A DNA stretch of 64,000 nucleotides from assembly GCF_003555505.1 (NCBI RefSeq), contig NZ_CP032152.1, forward strand, positions 992,001 through 1,056,000, read 5' to 3'. Under the pieces are notes generated by a model, which saw only the letters and a list, made by a program, of their open reading frames with translations, was not told where the DNA came from and searched no databases. Shown here in pieces: positions 10,166 to 24,443 of the stretch. Every line of letters begins with the position of its first letter. Position 1 is the stretch's first letter. Origin of the DNA: Thermosynechococcus sichuanensis E542. Its GTDB lineage: Bacteria; Cyanobacteriota; Cyanobacteriia; Thermosynechococcales; Thermosynechococcaceae. The translations under genes and the position numbers were made by a program.

Positions 10166-11329
10166 TTAAGCTAGCACTTGTTTGAGCGCTTGAATCACTT
10201 GATCCTGTTGGGCAAGGGTGAGTCCATAGTACAGGGGCAAGCTGATGGCTTCTTGGTAATAGGCTTCGGCGTTGGGAAAGTCTCCCCATTGAAATCCCAA
10301 TTGCTGATAGTAGGGTTGGGTATGTACAGGAATGTAGTGGAGATTCACCCCAATTCCAAGGCAACGAAGGGCTTCAAAGACCTCTCGATGGGAAGCTTGA
10401 ATTTGGTCTCGCTTCAGGCGAATGATGTACAGATGCCAACTGGAGCGGGTATCGGGGTGCTGAAATGGAAGCGTGAGGGGCAAATCAGCAAGGTATTGGT
10501 GGTAGCGTTGGGCTAAAAAACGCCGCCGCTCGACAAACTGATCGAGGCGTTGCAGTTGCCGTAGGCCAAGAGCCGCTTGCAGGTCGGTCATGCGGTAGTT
10601 AAAGCCCAGTTCCAGTTGTTGGTAGTACCAAGAACCGTGGGAGTCGCCCACCATTTGCTGGGGATCGCGGGTAATACCGTGGCTACGCAGACGGATGAGG
10701 CGCTGGTAGAGGTCTGGATTGTTGGTGAGAATAGCACCCCCTTCACCTGTAGTGATGATTTTGACGGGGTGAAAGCTAAAGACGGCCATCGTGGAGAATT
10801 CACAGCAGCCGATAGGTCGGCCACGGTACTGACCGCCAATGGCATGGGAGGCATCTTCAATCAAGGTAAAGCCATAGGTCTGCGCCAGTTCGGCAAGAGC
10901 CGCCATCTCACAGGATTGTCCGGCGAGGTGAACAGGAATGACAACTTTGGGGAGGGTGCCCTGTTTCTGTGCGACTGCTAGTTTTGTGGCAAGGGCAGAA
11001 ACGCTGAGGTTATAGGTGTGGGGGTCAATATCGACAAAGTCCACCGTGGCACCACAGTAGCGGCCACAATTGGCGGAGGCAACAAAGGTAATCGGTGATG
11101 TCCACAGGCGATCGCCCGCCTTTAGCCCCGCTGCTATACAGGCGAGATGAAGCGCTGCTGTGGCACTACTGACCACAACGGCATACCGCGCACCACAATA
11201 ACTCGCCAGTGCGGCTTCAAATTCAGGAATCTTGGGGCCTTGGGTCAGCCAGTCCGATTGCAGAACTTCAACGACAGCCGCAATATCCTCTGGGGTAATG
11301 TCTTGACGACCGTAGGGAATGATGCTCAT
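10166..11329 (-). CDS. pseC: UDP-4-amino-4,6-dideoxy-beta-L-AltNAc transaminase
   Basis: 387-residue PLP aminotransferase of the DegT/DnrJ/EryC1 family and second enzyme of CMP-pseudaminic acid synthesis: it aminates C4 of the keto-sugar made by PseB. The N-terminus IPYGRQDITPEDIAAVVEVL is typical of PseC. The PLP lysine is in FSFHPVKIITTGEGGAI, after the family motif LIEDASHAIGG. The gene follows pseB directly (the stop TAA abuts the ATG), so the two are translationally coupled. They point away from the rest of the pse genes, which lie on the other strand 5.5 kb away. Confidence 0.92.
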   Translation of the reverse strand: MSIIPYGRQDITPEDIAAVVEVLQSDWLTQGPKIPEFEAALASYCGARYAVVVSSATAALHLACIAAGLKAGDRLWTSPITFVASANCGRYCGATVDFVDIDPHTYNLSVSALATKLAVAQKQGTLPKVVIPVHLAGQSCEMAALAELAQTYGFTLIEDASHAIGGQYRGRPIGCCEFSTMAVFSFHPVKIITTGEGGAILTNNPDLYQRLIRLRSHGITRDPQQMVGDSHGSWYYQQLELGFNYRMTDLQAALGLRQLQRLDQFVERRRFLAQRYHQYLADLPLTLPFQHPDTRSSWHLYIIRLKRDQIQASHREVFEALRCLGIGVNLHYIPVHTQPYYQQLGFQWGDFPNAEAYYQEAISLPLYYGLTLAQQDQVIQALKQVLA

Positions 11330-12358
11330 TTAGCCCCTGCCCGGCACAAAGTTGGAGTCAACATGTTGGCGAATTAGGGCGCGTAGCTCCTCTACACTGA
11401 GGAAGCGATCGTTGCTCCCCGAATTGTAGCTAAACCCCGGCTTGACCCGTGTTGCGCCGGTTTGGGCACAGTACTCCTCTATCGTGAAGCGTCCTTGGGT
11501 AGGCAAAATGGCGTAGTACTGGCCTAAATCAACGGTGGTATAAGAGTCTGAAGTGGTAATCATCTCTTCGTGGATTTTCTCTCCTGGGCGAATGCCGACG
11601 ATCGCCTGCTCACACTCAGGGCAAATTGCCTCTGCCACATCCAAAATCCGATAGGAAGGGATTTTAGGCACAAAAATTTCGCCCCCCCAACTGTTTTCGA
11701 GTGCCCACAGCACCATTTCTACCCCCTCTTGGAGGGAGATATTAAAGCGGGTCATAGCTGGATCTGTAATTGGTAGGCAGCCCTCACAGCGCTTCTTCAA
11801 GAAAAAAGGAATCACGGATCCCCGCGACCCCATGACATTGCCATAGCGAACCACACTGAAGCGCAGATCACGACCTGCAAAGTTATTGGCAGCGATGAAA
11901 AGTTTGTCACTACAGAGCTTTGTGGCTCCATAGAGGTTGATGGGTGCCGCCGCCTTGTCCGTAGAGAGGGCAACCACCTGTTTGACATTGGTATCAAGGC
12001 AAGCCTGAATGACATTTTCGGCTCCCATGACATTGGTGCGAATAAACTCAATGGGATTGTATTCCGCCGCAGGCACTTGCTTGAGGGCAGCCGCATGAAC
12101 TACGATATCAACCTTGTTCAGAGCACGGCGCAGGCGATCGCGATCCCTGACATCGCCGATGAAGTAGCGAATCCCCGGATACTTCTTGTCGGGGAACTCC
12201 TGTGCCATCTCAAATTGCTTTAGCTCATCACGGCTAAAAATTACCAAGCGGCGAATATCGGGAAACCGCCGCAACACCTCCTTGACAAAGGCACGGCCAA
12301 ACGACCCTGTACCCCCCGTCACCAGTACGCCACTTTCTCTCGTCAGTCCTTGAGACAT
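11330..12358 (-). CDS. pseB: UDP-GlcNAc 4,6-dehydratase (inverting)
   Basis: 342-residue short-chain dehydrogenase that starts the pseudaminic acid route: dehydration of UDP-GlcNAc with C5 inversion. Residues about 12 to 25 hold the NAD(P)-binding GGTGSFGRAF loop. The catalytic Tyr-x3-Lys pair is in NLYGATKLCSD. AALKQVPAAEYNPIEFIRTN and FVPKIPSYRI are typical of PseB/FlaA1 proteins. It is the first gene of a pseB-pseC unit transcribed toward yidD. The intergenic 146 bases to the plus-strand island genes mark the switch from normal base composition to AT-rich DNA. Confidence 0.93.
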   Translation of the reverse strand: MSQGLTRESGVLVTGGTGSFGRAFVKEVLRRFPDIRRLVIFSRDELKQFEMAQEFPDKKYPGIRYFIGDVRDRDRLRRALNKVDIVVHAAALKQVPAAEYNPIEFIRTNVMGAENVIQACLDTNVKQVVALSTDKAAAPINLYGATKLCSDKLFIAANNFAGRDLRFSVVRYGNVMGSRGSVIPFFLKKRCEGCLPITDPAMTRFNISLQEGVEMVLWALENSWGGEIFVPKIPSYRILDVAEAICPECEQAIVGIRPGEKIHEEMITTSDSYTTVDLGQYYAILPTQGRFTIEEYCAQTGATRVKPGFSYNSGSNDRFLSVEELRALIRQHVDSNFVPGRG

Positions 12359-12504
12359 CCTAATAGACCCTCTACGACATCCGCATAGCTATAAATTTGA
12401 GTTCCTCAGCAAGCGCCTAGGGAACCTATTTTACACGGACTTGCCCTCTTGCAATCGTGTTAAAGTTCATCTAGGATATGGTTAAGCTTTACTGAACATG
12501 AATC

Positions 12505-14025
12505 ATGAATAATATTAGGTTACTTTACAAATGTAATCGGGGGCATAACATTAAAATCATTAAGCATATTATGTCTAAATATAATATCAACATATTACAC
12601 TTTACAGCAGTTATAGAGAATAAGTATAAGAAAACTAAGAATATCAATGCGGAGCTTAATGATTTAAACGTTAATTTGATAAGCCATGAAAAAGCTATAA
12701 GGTGCGATTATAGTGATTACGCCAAAGGATTGTTAATTCCGCTCAATATAGACATTTTTAATCAAATGAAGCCATATGAAAGTCAGATCATATCTTCTAT
12801 TTACAGATGGCGCTTTAGTGATTATGTGACGTTACAACAAGAATACATAGAGCATCTTAAGTTTTGGTATTGGTATTTAGTTGAGAATAAGATTAACCTA
12901 TATATAGACCTTGTGCCTCATGAGATTTATACAGGTGTTATTTACTATTTATCTAAAATTCTGAATATAAAAACCATATTAATACATCCATCTCCTGTTT
13001 ATGGCTCTTTTATATTGATGGAAGATTGGCGTGAATCATCAAAGGAAACTCAGCAGCTGTACCTAAATATTAAAAACCCAAATATGGATTTGAACTATAA
13101 TTTTGTTAATTTTGAAAGTGAAAAACCGAATTACTGGAATCCTATCTTTACTGATTTTCTGAAAAAACAAGAGTTAGAAGAATATCCTGTATATATGAAA
13201 GGTAAAATTTCAAAAAACAAGAAAATAAACAATCGATTTATCCTAAAGATTAACAAACCTTCGCTAGAAAAAATTGCCAAAATCACAGAATGGTTATTCA
13301 TGAAAACTTATAATCTTTCTAGGAAAACGAACCGAATTCTTCATCCTATAGTAAACTTTGTTTTTTCAAATTATCTAGAAAGTATTTCAGTTGATTCTAT
13401 AAATAATGAAGAGAAATATATTTACTTTCCTCTGCATTATCAACCAGAGTGTACAACGTCACCTCTTGGAGATGTTTTTGAAAATCAGTTAATTGCTATT
13501 GAGTGGATAATTTGCTCAAAACCAAAAGATGTGCTTTTGTACGTCAGAGAGCATCCTGCTCAAAATTTTGATACTAACACAATCCGATACAAATCGCTTA
13601 AAGTATATAAAAGGATTGCTTCTATGCATGAGGTTAAGTTTATATCGAGAAACATAAGTACATTTGAGTTAATTCGTAAAAGCTGTGCAGTAGCAACAAT
13701 AACAGGTACTGTAGGACTTGAAGCTATTTACAAAGAGAAGCCTGTTTTAATGTTTGGTTATCACGTTCATCAATATGCGCCTGGCGTATTCCCAATAAGA
13801 ACTTTAGATGATTGTAGCCTAGCAATGGAAAAGATATTTAAAGAGGGGTTCAAGCCTAGTAAAAGAGATGTATTCTTCTTCTTAGCAGCGTTACAAGAAA
13901 CATCTGTACCGGTAAACTATTTTTCTGAGAAAGAAATGAATGATATTAAGAAAACTAATAAATTCTCGGATTTCCTATATGCCTTTATTAAAAAATTAGA
14001 AATCTGTAATAGCAATTCTAGTTGA
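12505..14025 (+). CDS. Capsule polysaccharide biosynthesis-type glycosyltransferase-like protein
   Basis: 506 residues, unlike its neighbours in being strongly AT-rich (roughly 30% GC by eye). The C-terminal third carries a pattern known from capsule-polysaccharide (Kdo-transferase-like) proteins: YFPLHYQPECTTSP, then VREHP, then ATITGTVGLEAIYKEKPVLMFG. That points to a GT-B-type transferase or surface polysaccharide processing protein. The N-terminal part has no motif I recognise. The ATG at 12505 is the only workable one; an ATG at 12498 hits a stop after four codons. The base composition and lack of HIP1 sites suggest acquisition by transfer. The stop TGA overlaps the start of a short remnant frame at 14025. 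Confidence 0.6.
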   Translation: MNNIRLLYKCNRGHNIKIIKHIMSKYNINILHFTAVIENKYKKTKNINAELNDLNVNLISHEKAIRCDYSDYAKGLLIPLNIDIFNQMKPYESQIISSIYRWRFSDYVTLQQEYIEHLKFWYWYLVENKINLYIDLVPHEIYTGVIYYLSKILNIKTILIHPSPVYGSFILMEDWRESSKETQQLYLNIKNPNMDLNYNFVNFESEKPNYWNPIFTDFLKKQELEEYPVYMKGKISKNKKINNRFILKINKPSLEKIAKITEWLFMKTYNLSRKTNRILHPIVNFVFSNYLESISVDSINNEEKYIYFPLHYQPECTTSPLGDVFENQLIAIEWIICSKPKDVLLYVREHPAQNFDTNTIRYKSLKVYKRIASMHEVKFISRNISTFELIRKSCAVATITGTVGLEAIYKEKPVLMFGYHVHQYAPGVFPIRTLDDCSLAMEKIFKEGFKPSKRDVFFFLAALQETSVPVNYFSEKEMNDIKKTNKFSDFLYAFIKKLEICNSNSS

Positions 14026-14120
14026 TGAATCAAAATGAAAGTAGAATAGCCATTTTTAGTTTCGCTACACCTTCAAGGAGCATTTTAGTGGCAAACGCAT
14101 GCATTTCTCTTACTCACTAA
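14025..14120 (+). pseudogene. Possible 5' remnant of a lost gene
   Basis: A 31-codon frame starts in a TGATG overlap with the preceding gene, the classic arrangement of coupled genes, and reads MNQNESRIAIFSFATPSRSI and so on before TAA. The beta-strand-like opening RIAIFSFATP would suit the N-terminus of a glycosyltransferase or similar Rossmann protein, but it then ends. The following 50 bases show nothing. I read it as a truncated gene start, with low certainty; it could also be chance. Confidence 0.25.
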
Positions 14121-14172
14121 TTAGAAGCATAGCATCGAAACTACTTTCTAGAAGTCTAGTATGTAACCTTCT

Positions 14173-15030
14173 ATGAAATCCCTAATACCTAGCTTAGTTT
14201 TGAAAGAGCTTCATCCCAATGAAATAGCTTGGCTTGAAAGTACTTTTTGTCGGTTTAATAATCAATACCCATCCTTAGAAGAGTTATGGAAATTGATGGA
14301 TGAAGTATGGGATCAACTAAACTGTGATCCGGAAATTTTTGATAATAGAATAACAAGGTTTTATAATCACCCTATCTGGCTTCTTAACGGTCTATTTATT
14401 GAGCATCATGAAATTAGTTTGATGTATAGAAGAATTTTTACAAAATGGATTGTCAAACATTCCCCCCAACGTGTAGCAGATTATGGTGGTGGTTTTGGAA
14501 CACTAGCACGGATGATTGGTCAAGCATTACCTAGCACAATGGTGGAGGTAATTGAGCCTTATCCCCATCCAGCGGCAGTTGCCTTAGCTGCTCAAACTGC
14601 AAACGTCCGATACTGCCAAGACTTAAACGGAAGTTATGATGTTATTATTGCAACTGATGTTTTTGAGCATGTATCTGATCCACTAGGGTTGGTTTTTCAA
14701 ACTGCTCAGCATCTTAAGCCTGCTGGATATTATTTGATCGCTAATTGTTTTTATCCTGTAATCCGTTGTCACCTGCCTCAAACTTTTCACTTTCGATTTA
14801 CATGGAATACTATTCTTGAAAATATGGGACTGATTCCGATAGAGCCAGTTGCTTATGGTCATGCTTTTCAGCGAAATAATGAGTTATCTTTAAGTAATGC
14901 AAGGAAATTAGAAAAAGAATCTATAAGACTTTTTAGCTTTAGTAAGAACCTTCCTAACTTCGTTAATAAATTTCTATGGACACTATATTTAAAAATGAAA
15001 TTAGAAAATGACAATAGTGTTGAATGTTAA
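14173..15030 (+). CDS. Class I SAM-dependent methyltransferase
   Basis: 285 residues. The SAM-binding motif I is VADYGGGFGTLARMIG near residue 100, followed by motif II VEVIEPYP and the motif IV region YDVIIATDVFEHVSDPL. That is the pattern of methyltransf_11/23 proteins that modify small molecules or sugars. An N-terminal helical domain of about 95 residues has no motif I know. Its position between two glycosyltransferase-type genes suggests methylation of a surface sugar. AT-rich like the rest of this block. The 195 bases after the stop hold no convincing gene. Confidence 0.75.
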   Translation: MKSLIPSLVLKELHPNEIAWLESTFCRFNNQYPSLEELWKLMDEVWDQLNCDPEIFDNRITRFYNHPIWLLNGLFIEHHEISLMYRRIFTKWIVKHSPQRVADYGGGFGTLARMIGQALPSTMVEVIEPYPHPAAVALAAQTANVRYCQDLNGSYDVIIATDVFEHVSDPLGLVFQTAQHLKPAGYYLIANCFYPVIRCHLPQTFHFRFTWNTILENMGLIPIEPVAYGHAFQRNNELSLSNARKLEKESIRLFSFSKNLPNFVNKFLWTLYLKMKLENDNSVEC

Positions 15031-15225
15031 GATTTTAAGACTTGGTACCCAAATATGCATTGGATGTGTTGATACAAAATTCTCTTGCCTGTTGGCATCA
15101 TTGTTATTAATACTGGGATTTAGTTGCAAGAAAGAATGAATATTTAATTCTTCTCTTAAGTATTGTGTCGAGATGCAACACCATTGAGAAAATGAATTAA
15201 ATAGTTAACTTTTGTAGAGGAGAGA

Positions 15226-16494
15226 ATGATAAAAAGTATCCACCTTAATACTTTAGATATAGGCGGAGCTGCAAAGGCTGCTTTAAGAATTTGTCAATCT
15301 CTCCGAAGTATTAACTGTAATGCCTCGATGGTTGTTGCTGCCTCTCAAATCAGAGAGCCTTATATCTTTTCTGATAGGAATCTACCTAATCGTATCAAGT
15401 ATAGACTATTTAATGACTTTTCTAAAATTTTTATCAAACTATCTGGCTTCAGAACAGAAAACAAAATTCTTCATAGCCCTAATCTATTTTCCTGTTATTC
15501 CGCAGCATTTCTACAGTCATTAACGCCTGATATTATCCATCTTCACTGGATTGCAGCAAATCTGTTAAGCATTGAGGAAGTTGCTAAATTAAGACAACCA
15601 ATTGTTTGGACACTCCATGATATGTGGGCGTTCTGTGGTGCAGAACATTATACAGAGGATTTTCGTTGGAAAGATGGCTATTATCCCCATAACCGCCCTT
15701 CCTACGAGAAGGGTTTTGATCTGAATCGCTGGATATGGGAGCGTAAGCGTAAGTATTGGCAGAAACCGATGTATATTGTTGCACCTAGTCAGTGGCTTGG
15801 TGAATGTGTTCAGCAAAGTGCTCTGATGAGAAACTGGCCTGTCAGTGTGATTCCAAATCCGATTAACACTGAACAGTGGCAGCCATATGACAAGAAGCAA
15901 ATACGTCAGGAGCTTGATTTGCCAGTAGAGATGCCTCTTGTCCTTTTTGGGGCAATGGGTGGTGGCAAAGATCCGCGCAAGGGGTTTGATTTGCTCAAGA
16001 AAGCTTTAGGCTATCTGAAAAATGAAAATCAGCAGTTGCAGCTTGTAATTTTTGGCGAAGCTCAGCCCCACCAAGTGCAAGATTTCGGGTTTCCAGTCCG
16101 TTACACAGGTCATGTTAAAGATGAAAGCTATCTCTGTAAGCTCTATAGTGCAGCAGATGTAATGATTGTTCCTTCTCGCCAAGATAATTTGCCAAATACA
16201 GCGGTCGAAGCTATTAGCTGTGGCACACCTGTTGTGGCCTTTCAAGTCGGCGGCTTGCCAGACATTGTCGTACACCAAAAAACGGGTTACTTAGCGCATC
16301 CTTTTGAACCTATTGATTTAGCTTATGGGATTCAGTGGGTTTTAGAAGACCCGCAGCGCCATATTCAACTATGTGCTCAAGCTCGTGCCCATGCAGTTGA
16401 GAAGTTTGCTTACCCTGTTGTCGCTAAGCAATATCTTGCTCTTTATGAGGAAGTGCTAGAGCGTCACCGTCAAGAACAGTCGCCTGAACGCTAG
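15226..16494 (+). CDS. Family 4 glycosyltransferase (GT-B fold)
   Basis: 422-residue retaining glycosyltransferase expected at the inner face of the membrane. The N-terminal acceptor domain opens with HLNTLDIGGAAKAALRICQS. The C-terminal donor domain has VLFGAMGGGKDPRKGFDLL and the E-x7-E region PNTAVEAISCGTPVVAFQVG. Sugar and acceptor are unknown; the pse context makes a surface glycan likely. AGAGGAG five bases before ATG 15226 is a strong ribosome-binding site. Composition rises from AT-rich to host-like along the gene. The last 71 bases overlap the 3' end of the convergent histone-deacetylase-family gene. Confidence 0.88.
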   Translation: MIKSIHLNTLDIGGAAKAALRICQSLRSINCNASMVVAASQIREPYIFSDRNLPNRIKYRLFNDFSKIFIKLSGFRTENKILHSPNLFSCYSAAFLQSLTPDIIHLHWIAANLLSIEEVAKLRQPIVWTLHDMWAFCGAEHYTEDFRWKDGYYPHNRPSYEKGFDLNRWIWERKRKYWQKPMYIVAPSQWLGECVQQSALMRNWPVSVIPNPINTEQWQPYDKKQIRQELDLPVEMPLVLFGAMGGGKDPRKGFDLLKKALGYLKNENQQLQLVIFGEAQPHQVQDFGFPVRYTGHVKDESYLCKLYSAADVMIVPSRQDNLPNTAVEAISCGTPVVAFQVGGLPDIVVHQKTGYLAHPFEPIDLAYGIQWVLEDPQRHIQLCAQARAHAVEKFAYPVVAKQYLALYEEVLERHRQEQSPER

Positions 16495-17407
16495 CAACTA
16501 CCGATCGCCCCAAGGCATCAAGGTCATACCCCCCCTCTAAACCAACAACAATGCGGTGAGTGATCTGTAAGCACTGGTGCATCATCCAGCCATAGTCGGC
16601 TTCTTCGAGTTCAATGCTAGAAAGGGGATCGTCGCGGTGGGCATCGTAACCTGCACTGATAATCAGTAGGTCTGGGTTAAATTGCTGCAAAAAAGGAATG
16701 ACCTGATCTTGAAAAGCGGCTCGGTAGGTTTCCCCAGTAGAGCCTGTGGGCATGGGCAGGTTTAGGACGTTGTTGTGATGCCCGCGATCGCCCCCATCGC
16801 CTGTGTAGGGGTAAGCTGGAAACTCATGGAGCGAACAATAGGCGATCTGAGGATGATCCTCAACCAGTGCTTGGGTCCCATTGCCATGGTGCACATCCCA
16901 ATCGAGAATGGCCACTCGTGTGATCTTTGGCAAACTAAGGGCATAATGACTGGCGATCGCCCCATTGGCCAAGAGACAAAAGCCCATTCCCCGCTCCCGT
17001 AGGGCATGGTGGCCAGGAGGACGCGCCAAGACAAAAATCGGTTGCTGCCGCTGTACGGCCAAATCCACCCCATCTAGCCAAGCCTGTACCGCTAACCGCG
17101 CCACGCGATCGCTCTGGTCATTGAGATAGGTATCGGGATCCAGCCAGCCGCCCCCCTCTGCCGCAATCCGTGTCAATTGCTCTAAATACACCCGACTATG
17201 TACCTTCTCCAGCCACGAGGTTAATCCCTCGCCCACCGGTGTCGGTTCGCGCCACTCTGCTCTTGGAAATGCCTCCTGTAAATGCCGACAGATGGCTAAT
17301 AGGCGTTCTGGTCGCTCAAAGTGAAACTGGCGACAACGGTGTTCGAGAAAGCGATCGCTATAGATAAAGACAGGGGGAAACATAGGCACTCGGTTAGGCG
17401 AGGTCAT
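16424..17407 (-). CDS. Histone deacetylase family protein (acetoin utilisation/acetylpolyamine-type hydrolase)
   Basis: Zinc-dependent deacetylase of the arginase/HDAC fold. Seen are FVLARPPGHHALRERGMGFC, VAILDWDVHHGNGTQ (zinc Asp and His) and LLIISAGYDAHRDDPL (zinc Asp). Substrates of bacterial members include acetylpolyamines and acetylated proteins. I placed the start at ATG 17407, overlapping the upstream DUF29 stop by 14 bases; ATG 17383, eight residues on, is equally possible. A longer reading to 17608 would lie inside the DUF29 gene and is unlikely. Host-like composition with HIP1 sites, in contrast to the genes on either side. The C-terminus is encoded by bases shared with the glycosyltransferase gene. 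Confidence 0.85.
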   Translation of the reverse strand: MTSPNRVPMFPPVFIYSDRFLEHRCRQFHFERPERLLAICRHLQEAFPRAEWREPTPVGEGLTSWLEKVHSRVYLEQLTRIAAEGGGWLDPDTYLNDQSDRVARLAVQAWLDGVDLAVQRQQPIFVLARPPGHHALRERGMGFCLLANGAIASHYALSLPKITRVAILDWDVHHGNGTQALVEDHPQIAYCSLHEFPAYPYTGDGGDRGHHNNVLNLPMPTGSTGETYRAAFQDQVIPFLQQFNPDLLIISAGYDAHRDDPLSSIELEEADYGWMMHQCLQITHRIVVGLEGGYDLDALGRSVVASVQATVLDGDALALPHKEQDIA

Positions 17408-17858
17408 CCCAATCACCGCTTGTATCACAGAGAAACGTGGGATCGAGTACCTGCTCAAATGTGTAGGGACAAATCTCTGGAAAAACCCGCAGCGGTAGCA
17501 GCGTCTCTCGCAAAGCCAAATCCACACCCCCTTCAAAGCCATCGTTGAGGGCTTCAGCCGCCAAGGCACGCAGACTGGGACTCCGACGCAAATGTCGCCG
17601 AATTGCACGGCGTTGTTCTCGAATCGTCAGAAACCAACTACGGCACCGTCCTTCTGGTTGGTACTCCCACTTGAGCAAATGCCCAATCAACACAGTTAAG
17701 CGACTCACCAGCTCACGATATTCCTGCTTACCCAAGGACTCAACTTCTTTTTGGAGATTTGACCAATCCAAGTCAGCCCATGCCTTATTGGCAAGAGCTT
17801 GGCACTGCTGTTGCGTCCATGCATAAAAGTCGGTATCGTAGAGCGCAGGATCACCCAT
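17394..17858 (-). CDS. DUF29 domain protein
   Basis: 154 residues in the DUF29 family, abundant in cyanobacteria and of unknown function. The conserved opening is LYDTDFYAWTQQQ, followed by VESLGKQEYRELVSRL, LLKWEYQPEGR and SWFLTIREQRRAI. ATG 17858 places this opening at residue 5 as in other members; an upstream TTG at 17870 is in frame but less likely. It is the upstream partner of the deacetylase gene in one transcript. A second member at 23477 has the same orientation and borders the other end of the pseF-pseI block. Confidence 0.8.
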   Translation of the reverse strand: MGDPALYDTDFYAWTQQQCQALANKAWADLDWSNLQKEVESLGKQEYRELVSRLTVLIGHLLKWEYQPEGRCRSWFLTIREQRRAIRRHLRRSPSLRALAAEALNDGFEGGVDLALRETLLPLRVFPEICPYTFEQVLDPTFLCDTSGDWDDLA

Positions 17859-17906
17859 AAGTAGAACCAAGAAACTAGTGAATTATATTGCAACCCTAAC
17901 ATAAGT

Positions 17907-18620
17907 ATGAAAGTTGCTATTATTCCTGCGCGAGGAGGCAGCAAGCGAATTCCTCGTAAAAACATCCGTGACTTCTGTGGCAAGCCGATGATTGCTTACG
18001 CGATCAACATTGCTCAAAACTCTGGCTTGTTTGATCGGATTGTTGTTTCCACCGAAGACCCAGAGATTGCTAGTGTTGCTTCTCAATGGGGTGCAGAAGT
18101 TCCTTTTATGCGGCCAGCATCATTAGCCGATGACTATACAGGCACCACACAAGTCATTGCCCATGGTATTCAAGTATTGCAAGAGCAGGGTTATCATCCT
18201 GAGCTAGTGTGCTGCATCTACCCCGCCGTTCCTTTGCTACAAGTTGATGATCTCAAAGCCGCCTTTGACATGTTAGTTAGTTCTGACGCACCCTATGTTT
18301 TTCCAGTAACGACCTTTCCTTCTTCCATTCAGCGAGCTTTACGCCGACAGCCCTCTGGGCAGATGGAGCCTTTTTATCCAGAGTATGAGCAAGAACGCAC
18401 CCAAGACTTAGAACCTGCTTACTATGACGCGGGGCAATTTTACTGGGGAAGGGCTGAAGCGTGGCTTGCAGATATGAGTATTCATCGGCAGGGCATTGGA
18501 TTGGTTATTCCCCAATGGCGAGTTGTTGATGTTGATACCCTTGAGGATTGGCAACGTGCTGAGCTGATTTATCGAGCACTATACTCTAATCAGTTGGGGC
18601 AGGAGCAAGTCACATGTTAG
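17907..18620 (+). CDS. pseF: Pseudaminic acid cytidylyltransferase
   Basis: 237 residues, last enzyme of the pathway: CTP plus pseudaminic acid gives CMP-pseudaminic acid. The nucleotide loop is AIIPARGGSKRIPRKNIRDF at the N-terminus, followed by PMIAYAI and VVSTEDPEIA. AYYDAGQFYWGRAEAW is typical of PseF rather than of NeuA. ATG 17907 is seven bases from a weak purine-rich site. It overlaps pseG by seven bases, and near-normal GC distinguishes it from pseG and the genes beyond. Confidence 0.93.
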   Translation: MKVAIIPARGGSKRIPRKNIRDFCGKPMIAYAINIAQNSGLFDRIVVSTEDPEIASVASQWGAEVPFMRPASLADDYTGTTQVIAHGIQVLQEQGYHPELVCCIYPAVPLLQVDDLKAAFDMLVSSDAPYVFPVTTFPSSIQRALRRQPSGQMEPFYPEYEQERTQDLEPAYYDAGQFYWGRAEAWLADMSIHRQGIGLVIPQWRVVDVDTLEDWQRAELIYRALYSNQLGQEQVTC

Positions 18621-19678
18621 TTGTTTTCCGTGTGGACTCTGCGACTCAGATCGGTACAGGGCACGTCATGCGTTGTTTAACCCTAGCGGAAGCCCTAAGG
18701 GAACAGGGAGCGCACTGTACATTTATTTGTCGAAATCACCCCTCCAATATCTATTCGTTAATTGAGAAAAAGAACTTTCCGCTATACTTACTGAAAAATC
18801 CCTCAGATTGTACCTCATCCAACGACAACTGGTTGGGAGTATCACAGATTGATGATGCTGAAGAAACAATAGAAATTATTAAATTCTTAAAAATTAAACC
18901 CGATTGGCTCATTGTCGATCATTATGCAATAGATGTCACTTGGGAAAACAGGCTGAGAGGTCATACAAAAAAAATTATGGTCATTGATGACCTCGCCAAT
19001 CGAGTCCATGATTGTGATGTACTACTAGACCAGAACTATACTAATTGTTGGAATAAGTATGAGAGATTAGTCCCAAAGAATTGCCGTGTTTTATTAGGGT
19101 TAGAATACGCTCTTTTGCGTCCGCAATTTATTAACGCTCGCCAAAAGTTAGAGCAAGAGGGCAGACACTCTTTGGATTATCGTAAAGTTTTTATTTTTTT
19201 TGGAGGAGTGGACAAAGAAAACTACACAGGCAAAGCATTAGACATACTACTAGAACTAGGAGACTTTGCTCCAGAAGTGGTGATTGGTTGTCAAAACCCC
19301 CACCATGAAGTTCTTCAGGAAAAAATGTACCAGTTTCCCAATGGTCATTTACATGTTCAAGTAGATAACATAGCAGAAATTATGATGCGTTGTTCTTGGT
19401 ACCTAGGAGCGGGTGGATCGATCACTTGGGAGCGAATGTGTTTGGGACTGACTGGTATTGTCATTCCTATTTCTGATAATCAAATTGAATTCTCAAACGC
19501 CTTAGATTCTGATGGTTTTCATCGGGTAATTAGAGATTTGTGTACTGAGGAATTAAGAAAAAATTATCAAAACTATATCCTTGATCTGAGTTTCAAAGAG
19601 TCTATTTACAAAAGCTATCTACTATTTGACGGAGAAAGTACAATTAGGGTCGTTAATCACTTGTTCCAAATACATTAA
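18614..19678 (+). CDS. pseG: UDP-2,4-diacetamido-2,4,6-trideoxy-beta-L-altropyranose hydrolase
   Basis: 354-residue GT-B-fold hydrolase that removes UDP from the PseH product. Seen are the N-terminal FRVDSATQIGTGHVMRCLTL, WLIVDHYAIDVTWE and the C-terminal AGGSITWERMCLGLTGIVIP, all typical of PseG. The frame overlaps pseF by seven bases, so translation is probably coupled. A run of eight T at 19194-19201 inside the gene is a possible slippage site. AT-rich composition starts here. Confidence 0.9.
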   Translation: MLVVFRVDSATQIGTGHVMRCLTLAEALREQGAHCTFICRNHPSNIYSLIEKKNFPLYLLKNPSDCTSSNDNWLGVSQIDDAEETIEIIKFLKIKPDWLIVDHYAIDVTWENRLRGHTKKIMVIDDLANRVHDCDVLLDQNYTNCWNKYERLVPKNCRVLLGLEYALLRPQFINARQKLEQEGRHSLDYRKVFIFFGGVDKENYTGKALDILLELGDFAPEVVIGCQNPHHEVLQEKMYQFPNGHLHVQVDNIAEIMMRCSWYLGAGGSITWERMCLGLTGIVIPISDNQIEFSNALDSDGFHRVIRDLCTEELRKNYQNYILDLSFKESIYKSYLLFDGESTIRVVNHLFQIH

Positions 19679-19696
19679 CTGCTGTGGGAGACTAAT

Positions 19697-20305
19697 ATGA
19701 AGGTACTTATTCTTTCAGACAATAATAATGAGTATAGTAGAGAATTGATTCACTGGTTTCAGGGCATAGGTGAAGATATTTTTGTCCGTGAAGACCCAAT
19801 TGATCTACAAACAGTCAAAGAACTTAGCCCAGATTTTGTAATTAGCTATAATTATAAACATATTATTTCCAAAGATATTGTTGCTTGCTACTATCCTAGA
19901 ATAATTAATCTCCATATTTCGCTCCTGCCGTATAATAGAGGATGCTATCCAAATGTTTGGAGTTTTTTAGAGAACACACCTAAGGGAGTAACTATCCATT
20001 TGGTTGATGAGAATGTAGATACGGGGGATATTCTTTTACAGAAAGAAGTTTTTATTGATGAAGAAACGGAAACCCTAAGAAGTTCTTATCTGAAATTACA
20101 TAGAGAGATTCAGCAACTTTTTAAGAGTAACTGGGAAGCTCTTAAGCTAGGACAGATTCATCCCGTTAAACAAGAGGGGGGGGGGACAAGACACTACAAA
20201 CGAGAATTTATTCATTTCGTCCAGCCCCTTATCGGAGAAAAAGGATGGGATACACCCATTCGAGAACTTAAGGAGAAATATAGAACTTGGCGAAGTACAG
20301 CTTAA
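19697..20305 (+). CDS. Formyltransferase-fold protein of the pse locus, with in-frame G10 tract
   Basis: 202-residue protein of the methionyl-tRNA/GAR formyltransferase fold. The catalytic triad is Asn71 and His73 in NLHISLLPYNRG and Asp108 in NVDTGDIL, with the usual spacing. Such enzymes in nonulosonic acid loci put an N-formyl group on an amino sugar; the exact substrate here is inferred. In this sequence a run of ten G (20176-20185) encodes Gly-Gly-Gly, and the frame after it reads a normal family tail (GWDTPIRELKEKY). One G less would instead open a frame that runs without stop into pseH. It is 18 bases behind pseG. Confidence 0.8.
   Translation: MKVLILSDNNNEYSRELIHWFQGIGEDIFVREDPIDLQTVKELSPDFVISYNYKHIISKDIVACYYPRIINLHISLLPYNRGCYPNVWSFLENTPKGVTIHLVDENVDTGDILLQKEVFIDEETETLRSSYLKLHREIQQLFKSNWEALKLGQIHPVKQEGGGTRHYKREFIHFVQPLIGEKGWDTPIRELKEKYRTWRSTA
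20176..20185 (+). repeat. Homopolymeric G10 tract inside formyltransferase gene
   Basis: Ten consecutive G in a gene that is otherwise strongly AT-rich. It is the longest such run I see in the window. Tracts of this kind are classic slipped-strand mispairing sites in surface-sugar genes of Campylobacter and Helicobacter. In the present phase the formyltransferase frame is intact. Confidence 0.9.
20270..20275 (+). promoter_or_regulatory. Strong ribosome-binding site without a standard start codon (pseH)
   Basis: AAGGAG lies four bases before an ATA codon at 20280-20282 that is in frame with pseH. The frame from there reads IELGEVQLKNFIHLDPDEKE and then joins the pseH sequence without stop. 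This suggests either AUA initiation or a mutated ATG. Confidence 0.45.
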
Positions 20306-20339
20306 AAACTTTATTCATCTAGACCCTGATGAAAAGGAA

Positions 20340-20804
20340 ATGGTCAGGCGGTGGAGAAATCATCCAGAGGTTAAAAAGTGGATGTATTCAGATCATGAGA
20401 TTAGTGAAGGAGAGCACAGTCGATTTATTGAAAAATTAGCTGATAGCGTAAAGGATTTTTACTACCTCGTTTATAAGCGGGAAAAAGCTGTAGGTGTTCT
20501 ATACCTGAGTAAAGTAGATTTTTGTCATCAAAATGCATATTTTGGTATCTATGCCAATCCTGAACGATTAGCTCATGGTGCAGGTGTCATTTTAGAAAAA
20601 TCAGCTTTGTATCTCGCTTTTGGTATAGCGAAATTTCACACCCTTAAGCTAGAAGTTATTGAGAATAATAAAAGAGCTATAAACTTTTATAAGCGTATGG
20701 GTTTTCAGGAAGAGGGTAGGCTAAAAGAGTTTGTATTCAAGGAAGGCAAGTGGCAAGATGTCATTATCATGGGAATGCTTTCGATCGCTGACTCGTCTAA
20801 ATGA
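20340..20804 (+). CDS. pseH: GNAT acetyltransferase, PseH type
   Basis: Third pathway enzyme: N-acetylates the 4-amino group of the PseC product using acetyl-CoA. Seen are MVRRWRNHPEVKKWMYSDHE, typical of PseH, and the C-terminal GNAT part LEVIENNKRAINFYKRMGFQ. The first ATG is 20340, giving 154 residues. The family N-terminus clearly starts earlier: the upstream codons read LKNFIHLDPDEKE, so the real protein probably includes residues from about 20280, where AAGGAG precedes an ATA codon. No ATG, GTG or TTG exists in that frame back to the G tract at 20176. Expression may therefore rely on AUA or AUU initiation, or on frameshifting from the formyltransferase gene. Confidence 0.85.
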   Translation: MVRRWRNHPEVKKWMYSDHEISEGEHSRFIEKLADSVKDFYYLVYKREKAVGVLYLSKVDFCHQNAYFGIYANPERLAHGAGVILEKSALYLAFGIAKFHTLKLEVIENNKRAINFYKRMGFQEEGRLKEFVFKEGKWQDVIIMGMLSIADSSK

Positions 20805-20856
20805 TCGAAATCAAGTTATGTTAGGATACAAGAGCTTGTTGTAGGAGGGAGCTAGA

Positions 20857-21084
20857 ATGACCAAAACAATAAAAGTAATAGTTGAGAAACATCATGATGG
20901 CTATGTTGCGTATCCAATCGGCTTAAAAGGCGTAGTTGTTGGGCAGGGTGATTCATACGAAGATGCACTTGTTGATATAAAATCCGCTATAAACTTTCAC
21001 ATTCAGACATTTGGTGAAGAAGTGTTTACCAGTGATTCATCAGTTTTAGAAGTTTTTATTGCCGAAACAGGAGTTACTGCCTAG
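20857..21084 (+). CDS. hicB: HicB family antitoxin
   Basis: 75 residues with the short HicB fold: IKVIVEKHHDGYVAYPIGLKGVVVGQGDSYEDAL, then a helical segment typical of the partial RNase-H-like domain. It would bind and silence HicA. GTAGGAGGGAG precedes ATG 20857. Its stop TAG overlaps the GTG start of the next gene by one base, and the antitoxin-first order is a common arrangement. It probably also stabilises the surrounding acquired DNA. Confidence 0.82.
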   Translation: MTKTIKVIVEKHHDGYVAYPIGLKGVVVGQGDSYEDALVDIKSAINFHIQTFGEEVFTSDSSVLEVFIAETGVTA

Positions 21085-21323
21085 TGAGCAAATTTCCTGT
21101 TGATGCAACAAAGTCTCGAGTTATCAAAGCTTTCAAAGTTTTGGTTTTTTCTTTAGTGCGTGAAGCAGAACATATATCAATGATTCGAGAAAATCCAAAC
21201 GGAAGCAGGACACCTTTAACTATGCCAAACCATGCATATATTAAGTCCTCTACATTGCGGACAATTTGTACTCAAGCAGGGACAACTAGAGAAGAGTTCA
21301 TCAATGCTTATAATAAAACCTAG
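21084..21323 (+). CDS. hicA: HicA family mRNA interferase toxin
   Basis: 79 residues. The double-stranded RNA-binding-like HicA fold is shown by REAEHISMIRENPNGSRTPL and the C-terminal SSTLRTICTQAGTTREEFIN. The catalytic histidine would be the one in AEHI; the more common GSH motif is replaced, as in the cyanobacterial subgroup with GEHI. HicA cleaves mRNA to stop growth when free. GTG start coupled to hicB. Confidence 0.8.
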   Translation: MSKFPVDATKSRVIKAFKVLVFSLVREAEHISMIRENPNGSRTPLTMPNHAYIKSSTLRTICTQAGTTREEFINAYNKT

Positions 21324-21334
21324 CATATAAACTT

Positions 21335-22039
21335 ATGAACATATTTGTTGTAGCGGCTTACCCTGATGATGAAATTCTTGGCTGTGGGGGCACAATGGCT
21401 CTACACTCTGCACGGGGTGACAAAGTAACAGTGCTCATCATGGCAGAGGGGATCACTAGTCGGCTACAAGTGCGTGATGTGGTTTCTTGTCGAGAAAATT
21501 TAACAAAATTACAACAAACAGCCATAGAAGCGAATAAAGTCGTAGGTGTATCAGATGTCCGCTTTGCAGGGTTGCCTGACAATCGCATGGATAGTGTGGA
21601 TTTACTGGATGTTGTCAAAATTATTGAAAAAGTGATGGATGACATCCAGCCAGAGATCATTTATACTCACCATCATGCTGATCTAAACATAGACCATCAA
21701 ATTACCCATCAAGCTGTTATGACTGCTGCACGTCCACTACCAAACAGCCCTATCAAGGAAGTTCTCTTTTTTGAAGTCCCTTCAGCAACAGGCTGGAATA
21801 CACCTATAAGTGGAAATGCATTTATACCTCAGTACTATGTTGATATTTCACAAAATATTAATGATTTTTATACTGCTCTTGACCTTAAGATAAAAGCACT
21901 AGAAGTTTACTCTAATGAAATGCGATCGTATCCTCATGCTAGATCAATTGAGTCAATAAAAGCGTTAGCAGATTTTCGAGGATCATCAGTAGGTTTTCTG
22001 CATTCAGAATCATTTCAAGTAGGAAGAATTTTAATATGA
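21335..22039 (+). CDS. PIG-L family deacetylase (LmbE-like)
   Basis: 234-residue zinc-dependent N-acetylglucosamine-type deacetylase family member. The first metal motif, normally AHPDDE, reads AYPDDEILGCGGT here, with Tyr replacing the first zinc-binding His. The second region THHHADLNIDHQITHQAV keeps its histidines. PIG-L genes occur in nonulosonic acid and surface-sugar loci, where they deacetylate nucleotide sugars. The substitution may reduce or abolish activity. The gene is tightly packed: 11 bases behind hicA, with its end overlapping the next frame by four bases. Confidence 0.82.
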   Translation: MNIFVVAAYPDDEILGCGGTMALHSARGDKVTVLIMAEGITSRLQVRDVVSCRENLTKLQQTAIEANKVVGVSDVRFAGLPDNRMDSVDLLDVVKIIEKVMDDIQPEIIYTHHHADLNIDHQITHQAVMTAARPLPNSPIKEVLFFEVPSATGWNTPISGNAFIPQYYVDISQNINDFYTALDLKIKALEVYSNEMRSYPHARSIESIKALADFRGSSVGFLHSESFQVGRILI

Positions 22040-22462
22040 GTAATAAATCTATTATTATTGTGACAAATAGGAAGCGTAATGAATTTTTATCTCAATCTAT
22101 TTCCAAAAAATTATCACTTAAAACATACTTAATCACAAAAGAAAGTGAGCTTAACTATGAAAAAATTTCTAAATTAGATCCAAGCTGGATAAAAGCCACA
22201 ATTAGGTAAAGTTACTTACTTCCAACGTCGTAGACCTGAACAGAGTAGAATTGATTTGAATGAAGTTAAAAGCTTAGATAATCTTTATGACTACATTCGT
22301 ATGTTAGATGGTGAAGGTTATCCTAATGCTTTTATAGAAGCTGGTAATTTTCGCATTTCCTTTCACTCTCCTCACATCTGCGATGGATTTATAGAAAGTC
22401 AGGTTAAAATTGAACTCATTAAATCATTCGAGAGTCTAGAGCATGATCCTGAACAACAATAA
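22036..22462 (+). pseudogene. Internally deleted second formyltransferase
   Basis: An ATG overlapping the previous stop opens a frame of 57 codons (IIIVTNRKRNEFLSQS to KISKLDPSWI) that matches the N-terminus of sugar formyltransferases found in pse loci. It stops at 22209. From 22193 another frame reads KPQLGKVTYFQRRRPEQSRI to DNLYDYIRMLDGEGYPNAFIE, the C-terminal part of the same family. The catalytic centre between them, about 130 residues, is missing and the frames differ. A single internal deletion explains this. It is not expected to give a functional enzyme. Confidence 0.7.
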
Positions 22463-23474
22463 AGCAGTTCCTTTCGTCATTGCTGAAATGTCAGGGAATC
22501 ATAATCAATCCCTTGATAGAGCTTTGGAGATCGTTGAAGCGGTAGCTAAGTCTGGTGCTCATGCTCTAAAACTTCAGACTTACACGGCTGACACAATGAC
22601 GATCCGCTGTGAGAAACCTCATTTCTTTATCAGTGATGAGAGTAGTTTATGGAAGCAGGAATATCTCTATGATCTCTATCAAAAGGCTTATACTCCTTGG
22701 GAGTGGCATGAGCCTATTTTCAAGAAAGCCAAAGAGCTAGGCCTGATTGCATTCAGTACGCCTTTTGATCTGACGGCAGTAGATTTTCTTGAAGAATTAG
22801 ATTGTCCAATCTACAAGATCGCCTCATTTGAAAATGTGGATTTACGCTTGATTCGGCGAGTGGCAGAAACGGGTAAGCCGATTATTATGTCCACAGGTAT
22901 GGCTACCCTTGCTGAACTGGATGAGGCGGTGCGAACGATTCGAGCCACAGGTAATGATCAAATTGTCTTGCTGAAATGCACCAGTACGTATCCTGCGGAT
23001 CCGGCTGACTCTAATTTACGCACGATTCCCCACCTGAAGGAACTCTTTGGCTGTGAGGTGGGACTCTCGGATCACACCCTCGGAATTGGTGTGGCGGTAG
23101 CAGCGGTGGCTTTGGGGGCAACGGTCATTGAAAAGCACTTTACACTGAGTCGCGCTGAGGGCGGGGTAGATGCTGCCTTTAGTTTGGAACCCCATGAGAT
23201 GAAGCTATTGGTGGAGGAAACGCAGCGTGCCTATCAAGCCTTGGGTCGGGTACACTATGGCCCCACGGAAGCTGAGAAGAAGTCGTTGGTTTATCGCCGC
23301 TCATTATACTTTGTCAAAGATATGGCAGCAGGCGAGGTGATTACGCCAGAGTGTATTCGCTCGATTCGCCCTGGGTATGGGTTGCCCCCTAAATATTATG
23401 AGGTACTTCTAGGTAAGCGAGTGAATCAGGCCATTGAGCGGGGTACGGCTGTGGCATGGGAGCATATTGGCTGA
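22443..23474 (+). CDS. pseI: Pseudaminic acid synthase
   Basis: 343-residue NeuB-family enzyme that condenses the PseG product with phosphoenolpyruvate. The TIM-barrel part shows FVIAEMSGNHNQSLDRALEI, LKLQTYTADTMTI, IYKIASFENVDLRLIRRV, STGMATLAELDEAV and EVGLSDHTLGIG. The C-terminal SAF (antifreeze-like) domain begins near residue 290 (SLYFVKDMAAGEVITPECIR). PseI fits better than NeuB by the KLQTYTADTMTI motif. The gene start overlaps the deleted formyltransferase by 20 bases. The 5' part is AT-rich and the 3' part host-like. Confidence 0.93.
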   Translation: MILNNNKAVPFVIAEMSGNHNQSLDRALEIVEAVAKSGAHALKLQTYTADTMTIRCEKPHFFISDESSLWKQEYLYDLYQKAYTPWEWHEPIFKKAKELGLIAFSTPFDLTAVDFLEELDCPIYKIASFENVDLRLIRRVAETGKPIIMSTGMATLAELDEAVRTIRATGNDQIVLLKCTSTYPADPADSNLRTIPHLKELFGCEVGLSDHTLGIGVAVAAVALGATVIEKHFTLSRAEGGVDAAFSLEPHEMKLLVEETQRAYQALGRVHYGPTEAEKKSLVYRRSLYFVKDMAAGEVITPECIRSIRPGYGLPPKYYEVLLGKRVNQAIERGTAVAWEHIG

Positions 23475-23476
23475 GT

Positions 23477-23905
23477 CTAGAGGTGGAATGGCTCTTCAAA
23501 AATTTGTGCTTCCGAAAAGGGGCATGTTTGGGGCAACGTTTCAGGGTCAAGGGGGGTTTCTTGTCCCACTAGGTCAAGGGCTGTTTCGTAACTGAGGCAA
23601 ATGGCCTCTGGTAGGTAGGACTTGAGGCTGGGGTTTTCTTTGAGGTGGCGTTCTATGCGACGCCGCTGCTCACGAATCGTGTAAATCCAGCTTTTTGAAC
23701 GCTGTTCAGGCTGGTAGTACCACTTAATCAAATGCGCCAGTAAAACTTCAAGGCGGCTGCGCAATTCCCGTTTCTCTTGCCTACCCAAGGATGCAATCTC
23801 CTCACTCAAGTTCTCAAGGTCGAGGAGTTCAAATTTGCCTTGGCGGAGGTATGTGGCTTGTTGTTGCGTCCAAGCATAAAAGTCAGTTTCATACAGTGTG
23901 CTCAC
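23477..23905 (-). CDS. DUF29 domain protein
   Basis: 142 residues, unknown function, same family as the gene at 17394 (LYETDFYAWTQQQ, IASLGRQEKRELRSRLEVLL, LIKWYYQPEQRSKSW). I chose GTG 23905 because GGAGG lies ten bases upstream and the product starts VSTLYETDF, in line with the family. Longer readings to 24145 would overlap the cheW gene. It converges with pseI, two bases between the stops. Confidence 0.8.
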   Translation of the reverse strand: MSTLYETDFYAWTQQQATYLRQGKFELLDLENLSEEIASLGRQEKRELRSRLEVLLAHLIKWYYQPEQRSKSWIYTIREQRRRIERHLKENPSLKSYLPEAICLSYETALDLVGQETPLDPETLPQTCPFSEAQIFEEPFHL

Positions 23906-23945
23906 GGCTGGTTCGCCTCCAAATATATCTAGGAATGCAGTCAGG

Positions 23946-24443
23946 TTATTGCATTTTGAGGGTGTGGAGTACCTGCTCAATATCAACGATAAAGATGGGG
24001 GGTAACTCCTGATCTGCTTGACTACTGACCATGAGGGAACTGACGTTGTGGATGCTCCCCCAGTGGAGATAGTTGCTGGGAATGGGATGAATGGCATCCC
24101 GTGGGATGCGCTCAATGACCGGGGGGTCTGTGAGGGGGAGGCCAAGCCATTCCCCTTCTAAGCGGGGCTGGAGAATGAGCAAAAATTTCAGCTTCTGGGT
24201 TTCTGAGGTTGAGAGGGGATCGTCAAAGAGACAGCAGCCAATATCAATCACTAGAATTTCGTGGTTTTCATAGGTGACAAGGCCAATCCCTCGCTGGTGT
24301 GGATCGCCATGAATGGGGGGCAAAGGAATAACCCGATAGGCCTGTGCCATGGGCACGGCAAACTGTTCTTGACGCACGATAAAGGTCAGGAATTGCTCTA
24401 AAACAATGGGCTGGCTCTGGCGGCGACGGCGGCTTTTAAGCAT
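23946..24443 (-). CDS. CheW-like adaptor at the end of the pix operon
   Basis: 165-residue CheW-domain protein. The core strands are recognisable (FLTFIVRQEQFAVPMAQAYR, VTYENHEILVIDIGCCLF). It should couple a chemoreceptor to a CheA-type kinase, but could also act alone as an extra adaptor or antagonist of PixI. It overlaps pixL by eight bases and is the last gene of the unit. Little else in it is diagnostic. Confidence 0.75.
   Translation of the reverse strand: MLKSRRRRQSQPIVLEQFLTFIVRQEQFAVPMAQAYRVIPLPPIHGDPHQRGIGLVTYENHEILVIDIGCCLFDDPLSTSETQKLKFLLILQPRLEGEWLGLPLTDPPVIERIPRDAIHPIPSNYLHWGSIHNVSSLMVSSQADQELPPIFIVDIEQVLHTLKMQ

Follow-up and report, generated by a model that had tools for sequence, protein, structure and literature searches.

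This locus raises the question of what a run of ten G (20176-20185, + strand) does inside an open reading frame of 202 codons (19697-20305) in Thermosynechococcus sichuanensis E542. All positions refer to the window, the whole stretch of 64,000 nucleotides that was analysed. A reading of the sequence alone had described the run as a G10 tract within a strongly AT-rich formyltransferase gene of a pse locus, and in this it was right: the ten G are present, the gene is of the PseJ type with a GC content of 36%, and pse genes surround it. At the composition of the PseJ gene 5.7e-4 runs of at least ten G are expected under a first-order Markov model, or 7e-5 with the run itself excluded from the estimate. 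The 2.65-Mb genome contains 17 runs of G or C of at least nine nucleotides, three of them of length 10. The 16 others of length 9-10 have no known switch, which counts against interpreting the tract as one, and 14 of them are within open stretches of at least 300 amino acids (judged from open frames). A search of the window for eight G gives a number of matches at chance level (4 vs 4.39 expected). As the genome has many G/C runs and the eight-G count is that of chance, the homopolymer by itself is weak evidence and the evidence has to come from the surrounding reading frames.

The tract-bearing gene is located among genes for pseudaminic acid biosynthesis, each identified by an NCBIfam match over cutoff. 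Upstream on the same strand are pseF (pseudaminic acid cytidylyltransferase, 17907-18620, TIGR03584) and pseG (UDP-sugar hydrolase, 18614-19678, TIGR03590), and downstream is pseI (pseudaminic acid synthase, 22443-23474, TIGR03586). On the minus strand are pseC (10166-11329, TIGR03588), the aminotransferase making the amine that PseJ and PseH use, and the dehydratase gene pseB (11330-12358, TIGR03589). A PIG-L type deacetylase (PF02585) is encoded at 21335-22039 (+). GC content is 35-44% at 12001-16000 and 18001-24000 vs 49-56% in the rest of the window.

The 202-residue protein (Pfam Formyl_trans_N) belongs to the PseJ family of sugar N-formyltransferases. Its family profile matches the solved PseJ structures 6ci2 and 6ci4 with E-values of 7.9e-69 and 1.1e-68, and the single sequence matches over residues 15-194 (E 6.5e-42). 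The AlphaFold2 model (pLDDT 87.5) aligns with 6ci4 in VIA-align with a Z-score of 22.3 (189 residues, 2.4 Å, model residues 1-197), so both sequence and fold match solved PseJ over nearly the whole chain. Residues N71, H73, and D108, which we take to be the Asn-His-Asp catalytic residues, are invariant in all eight aligned sequences. The part encoded after the tract (residues 164-202) is modelled as one strand and two helices, and structural alignments extend into it, to residue 197 with PseJ and to residue 202 with the LgrA formylation domain. Because this part forms secondary structure and aligns with both proteins, it is part of the enzyme, and the fusion described below lacks it. The PseJ of Anoxybacillus kamchatkensis (6ci2, 6ci4, 6ci5, 6edk) is of the same family over nearly the full length, post-tract part included; we know of no tract or PseH fusion in it. 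The 6ci4 crystal was soaked with UDP-4-amino-4,6-dideoxy-L-AltNAc, the same amine that is named in the title of the PseH family TIGR03585, and the protein encoded here is predicted from its sequence to N-formylate UDP-4-amino-4,6-dideoxy-AltNAc.

A second enzyme is encoded across the tract in the +1 frame relative to PseJ. This frame is open from stop to stop between 20151, before the tract, and 20804, and it encodes a linker and PseH (TIGR03585, 166 bits, cutoff 93.1), the sole match to that family over cutoff in the genome. The PseH core occupies 20304-20801, with the profile starting at 20304. The two frames diverge at the tract, and 20186-20305 (+) codes both for the PseJ C-terminus in frame 0 and for the linker and N-terminal part of PseH in frame +1. 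In the window, the PseH frame contains no ATG, GTG, or TTG before 20340, approximately position 13 of the PseH profile, and no translation start of its own gives a complete PseH domain. The homopolymer is within coding sequence and a change in its length shifts the reading frame, as in slipped-strand loci. In silico, tracts of G7, G10, and G13 give PseJ (202 residues at G10), G9 and G12 give a PseJ-PseH fusion of 368 and 369 residues, and G8 and G11 come to a dead end after 190 and 191 residues. The choice of product therefore depends on tract length modulo three, and this two-product design is conserved.

PseJ-like loci were collected from one scan of genome contigs (five loci) and from phylum-wide genome searches (the rest), which covered 386 genomes of the window's phylum, 296 of the phylum of L044, 395 of that of L040, and 136 of that of a Persephonella metagenome-assembled genome (MAG). 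Searches of 230 genomes of the class of L040 found no further tract locus, and order-level searches added nothing. A tract of at least seven G is found at the equivalent place in seven loci, window included. Three are in the PseJ setting: the window (G10), L040 (G9, a Nitrospiraceae MAG), and L127 (G9). The other four are in the fusion setting: L044 (G8, a Ca. Geothermocultor MAG, assigned to Actinomycetota in NCBI taxonomy), L128 (G7 then C), L129 (G8), and L124 (G8, from the phylum of L040). L127-L129 are from Aquificota, the phylum of the Persephonella MAG, and L127 and L128 are on contigs of 1.69 and 1.81 Mb. Tract lengths thus range from G7 to G10 with both settings represented, and this is variation between species rather than strains. 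L127 and L128 are in opposite settings while being 87% identical in amino acids before the tract and 95% in PseH.

The second domain is in the same relative frame in all seven loci, reached with one nucleotide fewer than in the PseJ setting. It is PseH over cutoff in L128 (180 bits) and L044 (164 bits) as in the window, and PseH-like by eye in L127 and L129. In L040 it is a divergent GNAT protein below the PseH cutoff (60 bits vs 93.1), and in L124 (1495-2826) the same tract design has a methyltransferase in place of PseH. An overlapping domain is present in 7/7 PseJ-like genes with a tract of at least seven G and in 0/12 without one. The tract-less L126 was scored from its own frames: its formyltransferase match begins at query residue 43, and its open segment of 246 amino acids is the next gene, pseI. 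Of the weaker cyanobacterial matches, L047, L048, and L049 were inspected and not counted, and L050 to L073, like the 32 viral loci, are outside this table of 19 genes. After the tract-less PseJ-like gene of L119, at about 2041-2110, a short stub resembling the start of PseH was seen by eye in the +1 frame, followed by a stop; judging by its sequence, it is possibly a trace of a lost PseH.

All seven tract loci keep both frames open through the overlap, and a stop ends the third frame within 3-27 codons. When the fusion frame is randomly recoded with synonymous codons, the PseJ frame stays open in 0.03-2.5% of trials (0.1-2.5% in the four fusion-setting loci), and in those four loci the PseJ C-terminal frame is nevertheless still open and conserved. 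In the reverse test, in which the PseJ frame is recoded with its amino acids kept, chance alone preserves an open fusion frame in 1.8-17% of trials, depending on the locus. In the overlap, third positions of the PseJ frame are second positions of the fusion frame. In the seven tract loci their divergence is 0.548 upstream and drops to 0.363 within the overlap (p=1.1e-4), compared with 0.573 and 0.560 (p=0.70) in seven tract-less controls, where p-values here and below are guides, as third-position pairs and columns share ancestry and are not independent. The controls were L041, L042, L043, L119, L123, L130, and L132 (7 of the 12 tract-less genes); being distant or incomplete, L045, L046, L074, L125, and L126 did not enter this comparison. 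Where two genes encode one and the same amino acid, the codons of tract loci differ in 1062/2115 comparisons upstream and in 144/433 within the overlap, and those of controls in 904/1781 and 104/225. Pair by pair, third-position divergence is lower in the overlap in 21/21 tract pairs (p<0.05 in six) and in 13/21 control pairs (none at p<0.05). The strongest tract pairs are the window with L127 (5/29 vs 92/157, p=3.7e-5) and with L128 (p=2.3e-4).

A conserved frame transition at a homopolymer, with both frames constrained, is also what would be expected of programmed transcriptional slippage (ribosomal frameshifting is less likely), by which PseJ and the fusion would be made side by side in every cell from a constant DNA tract. 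Such slippage predicts the dual coding equally well, conservation of the two frames extends to all tract loci, and homopolymers are a known substrate for it (PMC3711429). However, recoding should leave the zero frame the same in every genome, and the genomic setting varies (3/7 PseJ vs 4/7 fusion). Because settings differ among genomes, close relatives included, a change of tract length in DNA is a better fit than recoding from an unchanging zero frame. The well-known bacterial cases of slippage use A/T runs, and we find this explanation rather doubtful here. It is also unlikely that switching has ceased, with the tract a hotspot of slow indels and every lineage fixed for one form, either PseJ alone with a dead PseH or the fusion. 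Each genome provides one sequence, L128 with its G7 then C may be fixed as a fusion, and L119, a tract-less formyltransferase with a short PseH-like stub (by eye), indicates that lineages can leave the arrangement. But the frame of a dead product should decay, and both frames stay open although pairs of loci have diverged at 13-44% of the residues preceding it. The constraint on the overlap, absent from the controls, is likewise not expected of fixed lineages.

Two further explanations would make the tract incidental or its length wrong. PseH could be an ordinary separate gene starting at ATG 20340, or at a rare AUA (20280) behind the AAGGAG motif at 20270-20275, which itself speaks for such a start. 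A counterpart of ATG 20340 is present in 5/7 loci. Further start codons occur in the fusion frame of some relatives: L127 has an ATG at the tract, L127, L128, and L129 each have a TTG about ten codons past the tract (about nine in L040), and L127 and L128 have GTG or TTG codons 11-19 residues ahead of the WRN motif. To judge from these codons, some independent translation of the second domain is possible in those relatives. A separate gene is still very improbable, because a start at 20340 cuts off about the first 12 PseH profile positions, which upstream residues of the frame supply, because four relatives are open fusions, and because no start codon ahead of the core is common to all loci; there is none in the window, and L124 has no ATG, GTG, or TTG between the tract and the methyltransferase domain. 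Homopolymer counts are error-prone, and if G10 were a sequencing error for G9 the real gene would be a fixed fusion. This is hardly credible, as L040 and L127 are in the PseJ setting too and the PseJ C-terminus is common to tract-less PseJ-like genes and solved PseJ. An assembly error of one G could mis-set a phase in L040 and L044 (both MAGs), L124, and L127-L129, but would not create conserved frames.

On balance, the G tract is probably the hinge of a dual-coded switch between PseJ and a PseJ-PseH fusion, its length changed most likely by slipped-strand replication (phase variation). At G10, or another length in the same frame, a cell would make complete PseJ and no PseH, whose core has no start codon before it. 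With one G fewer or two more, the ribosome would enter the overlapping frame, the last ~40 residues of PseJ would be replaced by the linker, and translation would run on through PseH to give one fusion protein of 368-369 residues, presumably without PseJ activity; the third frame would be a dead end. The structure of the fusion, modelled for L044, was predicted poorly (pLDDT 68). PseJ and PseH would share a target, the 4-amino group of UDP-4-amino-4,6-dideoxy-AltNAc. As they would compete for one amino group and this PseH is the sole one over cutoff, the predicted effect of a switch within a population is formyl vs acetyl at C7, the cell changing between 7-N-formyl and 7-N-acetyl pseudaminic acid.

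Slipped-strand phase variation, as proposed in the sequence-only reading, is a reasonable candidate, but the outcome looks like A or B (PseJ or the fusion) plus one dead-end frame rather than ON or OFF. The frame was called ON, which is true for the formyltransferase alone, as no start codon precedes the PseH core in this setting. That reading was also wrong in one detail: in silico, the loss of one G or the gain of two does more than alter the last 40 residues and fuses the protein to PseH. Nor is the arrangement peculiar to a cyanobacterium. We lean slightly towards a general form of the switch, in which the same dual-coded design in Cyanobacteria, Aquificota, Nitrospirota, and an Actinomycetota MAG would let one G exchange the PseJ C-terminus for an entire further enzyme, be it PseH, a divergent GNAT, or a methyltransferase, and cells would alternate between chemically different nonulosonic acids instead of turning a sugar on and off.

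A search of open-licence literature (titles and abstract openings, among the matches listed) found no description of a PseJ/PseH tract switch. Campylobacter CFT03427_1556, whose tag we take to be that of C. fetus, is one of the phase-variable genes that resemble the gene studied here. It has a formyltransferase domain and a poly-G tract of 9-10, and in the portions of the source used it is catalogued as tract-bearing, with no mention of a swap to another enzyme (PMC6321876). Tract-bearing Campylobacter genes also act in the modification of glycans with pseudaminic acid (PMC3068675). The nearest precedent is the C-terminal poly-G switching of Helicobacter canadensis, where eight genes have tracts of G10-14 near the 3' end that vary in reads, with ranges between G8 and G17 (PMC2823697). 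As here, one of them is a formyltransferase with a 3'-end tract (HCAN_0643, G11, G8-14 in reads), for which alternative tails of 17, 18, and 22 residues are given, and for HCAN_0660/0661 a tract possibly merges two coding sequences (CDSs), both hypothetical (PMC2823697). Going by the description in the parts of that paper used (PMC2823697), the HCAN genes differ from the present loci, where in four phyla the sequence for the C-terminus of the first enzyme also codes, in another frame, for part of a conserved domain of a second one. The GeneTack catalogue of reading-frame transitions similarly includes homopolymers where such a transition is conserved and assigns the cases to programmed frameshifting or to phase variation, and the words formyltransferase and acetyltransferase are absent from the main text of that paper as available to us (PMC3711429).

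Simple-sequence contingency loci are thus known already, as are C-terminal and CDS-merging poly-G switches in H. canadensis, formyltransferase included. The new elements are conserved dual coding, an either/or choice between enzymes that share a substrate, a second domain that can be exchanged, and the set of phyla. If the switch is real, it would suggest that pressure on surface sugars, for example from phages, also favours such a device in free-living bacteria away from animal hosts, a hot-spring cyanobacterium among them. It would also provide an unusually clear example of selection maintaining overlapping frames, with a single nucleotide deciding which of two enzymes that compete for the same substrate is made.

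The PseJ of the window was found in none of 10 other genomes of the genus (best match 40% identical over residues 39-138). On viral contigs, 32 PseJ-like relatives have no G run longer than six within 400 bases of the match and no WRN-type motif within 600 bases. Among plasmid records 153 match the formyltransferase and 68 the PseH frame, and the best formyltransferase match of the 153 (S. fredii, L074) is without a tract. A pseudaminic acid cluster has been mentioned as common to CL-1 and SCTE542 (PMC7005997). The congener G003 has pseB, pseC, and pseF at 89-96% identity to the window but a different cassette with another PseG (28%) and PseI (49%), and no PseJ or PseH match was found within the 50 kb searched. 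With the same pseB, pseC, and pseF beside a different cassette, this comparison of sequences suggests a replaceable surface-sugar cassette. In G003 (L151 12000-17700, equal to G003:C1:137000-142700) methyltransferase-like and amidinotransferase-like genes were seen by eye, and the different cassette is flanked by the same pseF on one side and, on the other, by a stretch of 97 residues that matches the end of pseI in the window.

Some minor features were seen in and around the pse operon of the window. Between pseH and the PIG-L gene (20857-21323) is a HicA-like toxin gene (PF07927), preceded by an ORF of 75 amino acids that is HicB-like by eye and has no Pfam or NCBIfam match. A probable remnant of a second formyltransferase is found at 22039-22462; its N-terminal piece has no Pfam match and its C-terminal piece matches Formyl_trans_C_2. 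A DUF29 gene (PF01724) is beside the locus at 23477-24145 (-), and an ORF just upstream of pseF (17394-17870, -) resembles a DUF29 gene by eye.
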